From assembly GCF_029815055.1 (NCBI RefSeq), contig NZ_JAPPWA010000002.1, forward strand, positions 1,488,001-1,552,000: a DNA stretch of 64,000 nt, in the 5' to 3' direction. The DNA is from Ignatzschineria sp. RMDPL8A (GTDB lineage: Bacteria; Pseudomonadota; Gammaproteobacteria; Cardiobacteriales; Wohlfahrtiimonadaceae). The notes beneath the pieces were generated by a model. The model made no database searches and had not been told where the DNA came from. It saw nothing but the letters and a program-made list of their open reading frames with translations. A program made the position numbers and the translations under genes. Numbering within the stretch: position 1 is the first letter of the stretch; each line of letters begins with the position of its first letter. Positions 60,854 to 61,241 of the stretch are shown here, piece by piece.

Positions 60854-60910
60854 GATTTAGCCCTATTTATACATTTAAAAGAATACAAAAAAAAGAATAT
60901 TCATTAGTCT

Positions 60911-60957
60911 AAAAAAAGAGGCAAAACCGAAGCGTCCACGGATTTCCATGGAGGCGC
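60911..60957 (-). terminator. Terminator-like hairpin in the nrdAB leader
   Basis: On the - strand GCGCCTCCATGG, loop AAAT, CCGTGGACGC form an imperfect stem with a 2-base bulge and one G-T pair. A T7 run starts 14 bases after it. It may serve as the expression platform of the upstream riboswitch, but the distance to the T run is longer than ideal. Confidence 0.4.
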
Positions 60958-61074
60958 GTCTTTATACCCCTTTTTTTAACCTAAGGCGCATAAAAACGAA
61001 GAAGTAGGCTGTATAGAAAAATTCTAATACAAGAGGCTTCCCCGCTCTCAAGCATTTGTTAAGTTGTGTTAATT

Positions 61075-61225
61075 AGTTGATAGGTCTCCTGACTTATAGG
61101 TCTTAAAAATTCCTCAAGCCTTCCCAGATCTAACCTTTTACCCAGTGGCTTCTCCCGAGAAACTTCTAGCTAATTACAGTTGCGGGGGCAGTGTTTGCTT
61201 TCCACAAACTTCCCTTGAATCAACT
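61075..61225 (-). ncRNA. Cobalamin (B12) riboswitch upstream of nrdAB
   Basis: Read on the - strand the element opens with GGGAAGTTTGTGG and contains CACTGCCCCCGCAACTGTA (61193-61175). It continues with AGAAGCCACTGGG and ends with the B12 box AAGTCAGGAGACCTAT (61095-61080). The outer helix P1 pairs AGTTGAT with ATCAACT exactly (61225-61219 with 61081-61075). These features and their order are those of the adenosylcobalamin riboswitch family. The next gene in the same direction is nrdA. Such elements usually switch expression off when cobalamin binds. Confidence 0.93.
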
Positions 61226-61232
61226 TGTCGTT

Positions 61233-61241
61233 ACTATAGCA
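61233..61241 (-). promoter_or_regulatory. Probable extended -10 promoter element for the riboswitch-nrdAB transcript
   Basis: On the - strand TGCTATAGT (extended -10) ends 7 bases before the riboswitch P1 helix. No good -35 is seen at the usual spacing, which is tolerated by extended -10 promoters. Confidence 0.45.

Follow-up and report, generated by a model that had tools for sequence, protein, structure and literature searches.

A cobalamin riboswitch upstream of the class I reductase genes nrdA-nrdB in a gammaproteobacterium that also encodes NrdJ

The nrdA-nrdB locus and its leader

The window, i.e., the whole 64,000-nucleotide stretch of DNA that was analysed, carries on its minus strand a cobalamin riboswitch followed by the two subunit genes of a class I ribonucleotide reductase (Table 1). 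The aptamer was recognized by covariance search with Rfam. RF00174, which has a gathering score of 31.5 bits, matched over the full model length and was the sole match at or above the gathering threshold when the whole 64 kb were scanned. The preliminary description had read a complete B12 riboswitch on the minus strand (60854-61241) with nrdA-nrdB as the next genes, and both points were borne out; the core, B12 box and P1 all fall inside those coordinates, and no ORF of at least 90 aa was found between the aptamer and nrdA. At the possible promoter element in front of the aptamer, no sigma-70 site was returned by a consensus scan.

Table 1. Coordinates of genes, aptamer elements and predicted leader structures in the window
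Feature	Position	Strand	Basis or remark
nrdA, large subunit of a class I ribonucleotide reductase, 746 aa	60853-58613	-	TIGR02506; conserved residues of catalysis and the radical path
nrdB, class I small subunit, 369 aa	58443-57334	-	PF00268; metal ligands and radical tyrosine align with E. coli R2
Cobalamin riboswitch aptamer	61239-61062	-	RF00174, 89.4 bits, E 8.8e-21, model 1-189
Aptamer core ACTGCCCCCGCAACTGTAA	61192-61174	-	Sequence; intact
B12 box	61095-61082	-	Sequence; intact
P1 of the aptamer	61225-61219 pairing with 61081-61075	-	Sequence; intact
L5 CCCCGC, putative kissing-loop half inside the aptamer	61187-61182	-	Perfect complement of GCGGGG, 61045-61040
Possible extended -10 promoter element TGCTATAGT	61233..61241	-	Immediately upstream of the aptamer; reading of sequence only
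P13 hairpin with L13 GCGGGG (61045-61040)	61030..61050	-	Predicted, -5.5 kcal/mol
P13 3' arm GCCUCUU	61031..61037	-	Complements the T 5' arm AAGGGGU (60972-60966)
Helix B, alternative to P13, terminator-like, ends UUUUUA	60991..61050	-	-20.0 kcal/mol
AT2 hairpin, incompatible with T and with the outer part of B	60957..60998	-	-16.7 kcal/mol
T, terminator-like hairpin followed by U7	60911..60977	-	-28.8 kcal/mol
nrdA Shine-Dalgarno region UAGGGC	60860..60865	-	Sequence; in the unconstrained fold paired to GCCUUA upstream

The NrdA product exceeded the cut-off of the general NrdE/NrdA model TIGR02506 (495 bits, cut-off 341). Alignment with E. coli R1 showed that it keeps the N-x-C-x-E motif, the tyrosine pair and both sets of cysteines, the three of the active site and those at the C terminus, and NrdB aligned with E. 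coli R2 kept the metal ligands, the radical tyrosine and the C-terminal tyrosine. These are positions of the active site, the radical path and the di-iron ligands. The NCBIfam class Ia equivalog cut-offs were missed, i.e., 558 of 813 bits for NF006578 and 183.5 of 346 bits for NF006576. The earlier assignment to class Ia thus stood as far as the conserved E. coli class Ia residues go, but not by the curated models. Judged from its residues, NrdAB is an oxygen-dependent class I enzyme of the class Ia type, and it is called divergent because the class Ia models were matched below their curated cut-offs. The identity of NrdA to that of the neighbouring family was 35-36%.

The leader between aptamer and nrdA (61061-60854, 208 bases) has a strongly structured predicted fold, with a z score of -5.07 and none of 200 shuffles as good. 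The L5 and L13 loops have the complementarity of a kissing loop and may pair with each other. Helix B uses the 5' arm of P13, a layout also found in terminator-like hairpins of Wohlfahrtiimonas nrdA leaders, and the P13 sequence GAGCGGGGAG also follows the aptamer of the relative G015. Hairpin T, which has long internal loops, was not flagged by a simple terminator scan. The 3' arm of P13 is repeated over seven bases within the 3' arm of T (60922-60916), the longest stretch shared; a 7-base sharing with the T 3' arm was reached by 85 of 20000 random 12-mers.

NrdJ, B12 supply and the occurrence of the riboswitch

The assembly of the window has 2.18 Mb and is 99% complete. Its host belongs to the Cardiobacteriales (Ignatzschineriaceae), and the named genera closest to it are Ignatzschineria and Wohlfahrtiimonas. 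A B12-dependent reductase is encoded in two parts, i.e., NrdJa of 705 aa, which scored above cut-off in the profile search (590.7 bits), and NrdJb of 229 aa, which has a TSCPD domain and a Cys-rich tail. The catalytic subunit aligns with 1xje, a solved B12-dependent enzyme. A B12 uptake cluster (btuD/btuC...btuB-btuF) was also found. BtuB, BtuC and BtuF matched the named families with scores below the curated cut-offs and BtuD was identified by eye, so that the Btu names combine family match and gene context. A PduO-type adenosyltransferase is encoded (172.6 bits), and neither BtuR nor NrdD was found in the genome. The preliminary description had supposed a cobalamin-dependent reductase or a B12 uptake route, and both are present. 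It had also proposed looking for nrdJ, btuB and further riboswitches; besides NrdJ and btuB, one other riboswitch was found, the sole one in the genome, and it precedes btuB of the uptake cluster.

The btuB riboswitch (L019:8889-9040) overlaps the 3' end of a protoglobin gene (L019:8387-9063) that lies between btuC and btuB. It is of the short form with core GCGGGCCCGCC, and the nrdA riboswitch (61239-61062) is of the long form with core CTGCCCCCGCAACTG. Riboswitches that differ in this way tend to prefer different cobalamins. With two forms in one genome, uptake and reductase may therefore sense different forms of B12. Control by NrdR was considered separately. The NrdR consensus box ACACWATATATWGTGT had no match with up to three mismatches in the window, in L018 (the nrdJ region) or in L061; this was a single consensus, and other NrdR boxes are possible.

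In the order, 32 genomes of Cardiobacteriales were compared. Within the family of the window, the riboswitch stands at nrdA in all three genomes with both NrdJ and NrdAB (G000, G016, and G015) and in none of the 15 with NrdAB and no NrdJ. The NrdJ of G015 is cut by a contig end and hence scored below cut-off; it was counted as NrdJ. Twelve of the 15 genomes without NrdJ have one riboswitch match elsewhere, below the gathering score in two of these 12, and the match precedes a btuB-like gene in 3/3 inspected. Two genomes of other families (G001 and G014) have NrdJ and riboswitches without a class I NrdA, and in the remaining 12 of the 32 neither a riboswitch nor NrdJ above cut-off was found. 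Among named records, a riboswitch match was found at 0/12 Ignatzschineria and Wohlfahrtiimonas nrdA loci and at the one locus of L005, a record of the window's species.

The contrast of 3/3 with 0/15 has a p value of 0.0012 if the genomes are treated as independent, but they are related. The NrdA tree was (G015,(Wohlfahrtiimonas,(window genus, Ignatzschineria))), in which the last pair had support of 87/98, some forks stayed open and G015 sat on a long branch. The lineages with the nrdA riboswitch are not sisters on this tree, and the contrast thus amounts to about two events, either joint losses or joint gains. NrdJ is 70-76% identical between lineages of the order, and these identities fit vertical descent with joint loss.

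Matches of 565 aa to TIGR02504 in relatives were also considered as a second B12 enzyme. In L049 and L055 they have an adjacent small subunit of 325 aa, and the L049 protein scored above the cut-off of the class I model TIGR02510; for these reasons they were not counted as NrdJ. Some Ignatzschineria and Wohlfahrtiimonas genomes have a second, short class I reductase, i.e., a 565-aa protein of the NrdE-prime type with a 325-aa small subunit.

An intact or decayed copy was sought in the nrdA leaders of other relatives. In G030, a Wohlfahrtiimonas without NrdJ and without a match to the PduO-type adenosyltransferase, the leader is collinear with that of the window (score 89; 100 shuffles with mean 42.1 and largest 76; z 6.3). 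Among the 16 genomes whose leaders were aligned to that of the window, the next were G029 (z 3.8), G031 (3.2) and G015 (2.4), and the rest reached at most 1.8. At a permissive Rfam setting, the G030 leader matched the cobalamin model below threshold (17.9 bits, E 0.019), with altered L5 loop and B12 box, and no aptamer was matched at nrdA of G031, G026 or G025, i.e., one of four tested was positive. An unrelated family reached E 0.025 at the same setting, so the case for G030 comes mainly from the collinear alignment. A leader of this kind is what a decayed aptamer would look like after disuse following the loss of NrdJ. The G015 leader has another platform, and that of G016 is almost identical to the window's. 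The G016 aptamer (L005:1685-1862), from the same species as the window, scored 83.5 bits to the window's 89.4, and GGAGACC of the B12 box is GGAGCCC, which is real variation or an assembly error.

The apparent decay in G030 and the changed B12 box of G016, a conserved element, raise the question whether the window's aptamer, too, has ceased to regulate, as in relatives with a decayed or lost copy. This seems very improbable. At 89.4 bits, the window's aptamer has its core, B12 box, P1 and kissing sequences intact, and the NrdJ and uptake genes are also intact.

Outside the order, 229 genomes of Gammaproteobacteria were sampled, and the listed riboswitch rows were paired with the listed NrdA rows by position, by eye. 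A same-strand riboswitch in front of nrdA was found in at least five genomes besides that of the window (G043, G195, G158, G086, and G216), a lower bound because the listed riboswitch matches reach down to about 91 bits. The five belong to four other families, and Rfam confirmed the riboswitch on the DNA of all of them. The arrangement is therefore recurrent, and the earlier remark that it would be unusual in a gammaproteobacterium was too strong. NrdJ above cut-off was found in 5/5, interrupted inside the frame in two, and was listed in 31 of the 125 remaining genomes that had a listed NrdA (p 0.0013, a value biased because interrupted genes were sought only in the five). By the survey rows alone, it was 3/5 vs 31/125 (p 0.11).

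Predicted direction of control

The cell probably chooses between NrdAB and NrdJ by its B12 supply. When B12 is scarce, nrdAB would be transcribed and the oxygen-dependent, B12-independent NrdAB would supply deoxyribonucleotides. When B12 is plentiful, BtuBCDF would import it and the PduO-type enzyme would turn it into adenosylcobalamin. This presumed ligand would then stabilise the L5-L13 kissing loop together with P13, and with P13 formed its 3' arm would be unavailable to the 5' arm of T. T could then form and transcription would end before nrdA, with NrdJ taking over. We infer the direction, and hold repression of nrdAB by premature termination with some confidence. It is favoured by metabolic logic, by the co-occurrence with NrdJ and by precedent, i.e., the reported Streptomyces case and the cases in PMC3848588 and PMC545781.

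The folding predictions do not side with repression. The antiterminator it would need, between the P13 3' arm and the T 5' arm, carries a penalty of about 9 to 17 kcal/mol relative to the free fold in nested folding without B at the lengths tested; together with B it would be a pseudoknot, which lies outside nested-folding scores. In RNA exposed to 60917, where T is first able to form, the unconstrained leader gave T 0.978 and AT2 0.016, and with P13 enforced T 0.005 and AT2 0.993. The Turner 2004, Turner 1999 and Langdon 2018 energy sets agreed on the direction of this effect, and so did folding with the aptamer included. The repressing reading is thus weakened by the disfavoured antiterminator, by an unliganded leader that forms the terminator and an enforced P13 that blocks it in three of four energy sets, and by the p value of 0.11 in the survey. 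A weak direct antiterminator between 61004 and 60967 (-4.4 kcal/mol) was also tried and dropped.

These predictions suit an activating switch, in which B12 would turn nrdAB on and P13 would act as the antiterminator. Without ligand, helix B and T would form and transcription would stop; with ligand, P13 would block B and free the 5' arm of AT2, and AT2 would block T. The P13-like hairpin of G030 and G031 shares its 5' arm with a U-tract terminator hairpin, and mutual exclusion of P13 and terminator is the activating layout in PMC10653944. However, the fourth energy set (Andronescu) gave little difference, and once T is complete it wins with and without P13 enforced. At lengths 60997 and 60917, the P13 state is also costlier than the free state by 13 to 18 kcal/mol in the nested model without pseudoknots, and kissing and ligand would have to meet this cost. 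Moreover, a cell that made NrdAB in response to B12 would run short of DNA precursors when B12 is absent, and activation gives no reason for the riboswitch to go with NrdJ. PMC10653944 terms its own activating corrinoid riboswitch the first known. Activation is regarded as unlikely; if true, the window would add a second case of a natural activating corrinoid riboswitch and, as far as the literature search goes, the first case on a reductase. Prediction from anatomy (activating) and metabolic logic (repressing) disagree here, and the locus is a test case for how far such predictions of riboswitch sign can be trusted.

Control could also be mainly translational, with the ligand state setting the pairing of the Shine-Dalgarno region (60865-60860) with GCCUUA and with T of minor weight. 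This pairing was 0.94-0.98 unconstrained and 0.01-0.03 with P13 enforced, and G015 has an nrdA aptamer and the P13 sequence with no terminator-like hairpin found in its leader. The start region of G015, however, was predicted to be paired in both states, and in the window 177 nt, which include the U7 hairpin, separate the end of P13 from the start codon. Such control is judged quite improbable.

Comparison with known systems

That B12 controls B12-independent reductases is already established, with known cases in Streptomyces and Propionibacterium. Borovok and colleagues reportedly described in 2006 a B12 riboswitch at Streptomyces nrdABS with repression by B12. Like the window, that system has a cobalamin riboswitch on a class Ia reductase operon; it belongs to an actinobacterium, in which repression by B12 is reported, whereas in the window repression is predicted.

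For Propionibacterium acnes, PMC3848588 describes the leaders of nrdAB and nrdDG; a cobalamin riboswitch precedes nrdAB, RNA-seq shows early termination, and NrdJ is present. The riboswitch before nrdAB is shared with the window and the NrdJ with its genome. P. acnes is an actinobacterium with three reductase classes and NrdR boxes; in the genome of the window NrdD was not found, and the window, L018 and L061 gave no NrdR-like box. For Desulfovibrio vulgaris and Desulfuromonas, PMC545781 places B12 elements before nrdDG and predicts repression by B12 where NrdJ exists. As predicted for the host of the window, a B12-independent reductase would be repressed by B12 in a genome with NrdJ, but there it is the class III NrdDG.

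The sign has been measured for cobT of Alkalihalobacillus halodurans, where PMC10653944 reports an activating corrinoid riboswitch with the best response to cobinamide. The same paper gives, for a repressing corrinoid riboswitch, an antiterminator made of the P13 3' arm and the terminator 5' arm. Either layout may have a counterpart in the window. The 7-bp complementarity of P13 3' arm and T 5' arm would correspond to the repressing one and is disfavoured in nested folding; P13, which excludes helix B by sequence and is modelled to act on T in three of four energy sets, would correspond to the activating one, in which P13 and terminator exclude each other as at cobT. The target in A. halodurans is cobT with a measured sign, whereas in the window it is nrdAB and the sign is modelled.

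Pseudomonas aeruginosa is a gammaproteobacterium that, like the window's host, has NrdAB and a split NrdJa/NrdJb (PMC5962746 and PMC4520616). It has an additional class III enzyme according to these sources, whereas no NrdD was found in the window's genome, and the response of its nrd genes to B12 does not depend on a riboswitch. In a literature search that missed key older papers, no published account was found of a B12-controlled reductase in the family of the window, nor of one for nrdAB of a gammaproteobacterium. Repression by B12, if correct, would link the making of DNA precursors to the supply of a vitamin in this family of Gammaproteobacteria. The close relatives offer a natural experiment, since those without NrdJ are without the switch and one seems to carry a decaying copy.

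Terminator-like hairpins were observed in the nrdA leaders of five of six Wohlfahrtiimonas genomes (L070, L071, L072, L073, and L075; -11.5 to -25.7 kcal/mol). They end 29-45 nt before the nrdA start and occur without an intact riboswitch, and in four of the five the 5' arm can form a small P13-like hairpin. These hairpins may be an attenuator answering some signal or a remnant of the riboswitch platform.
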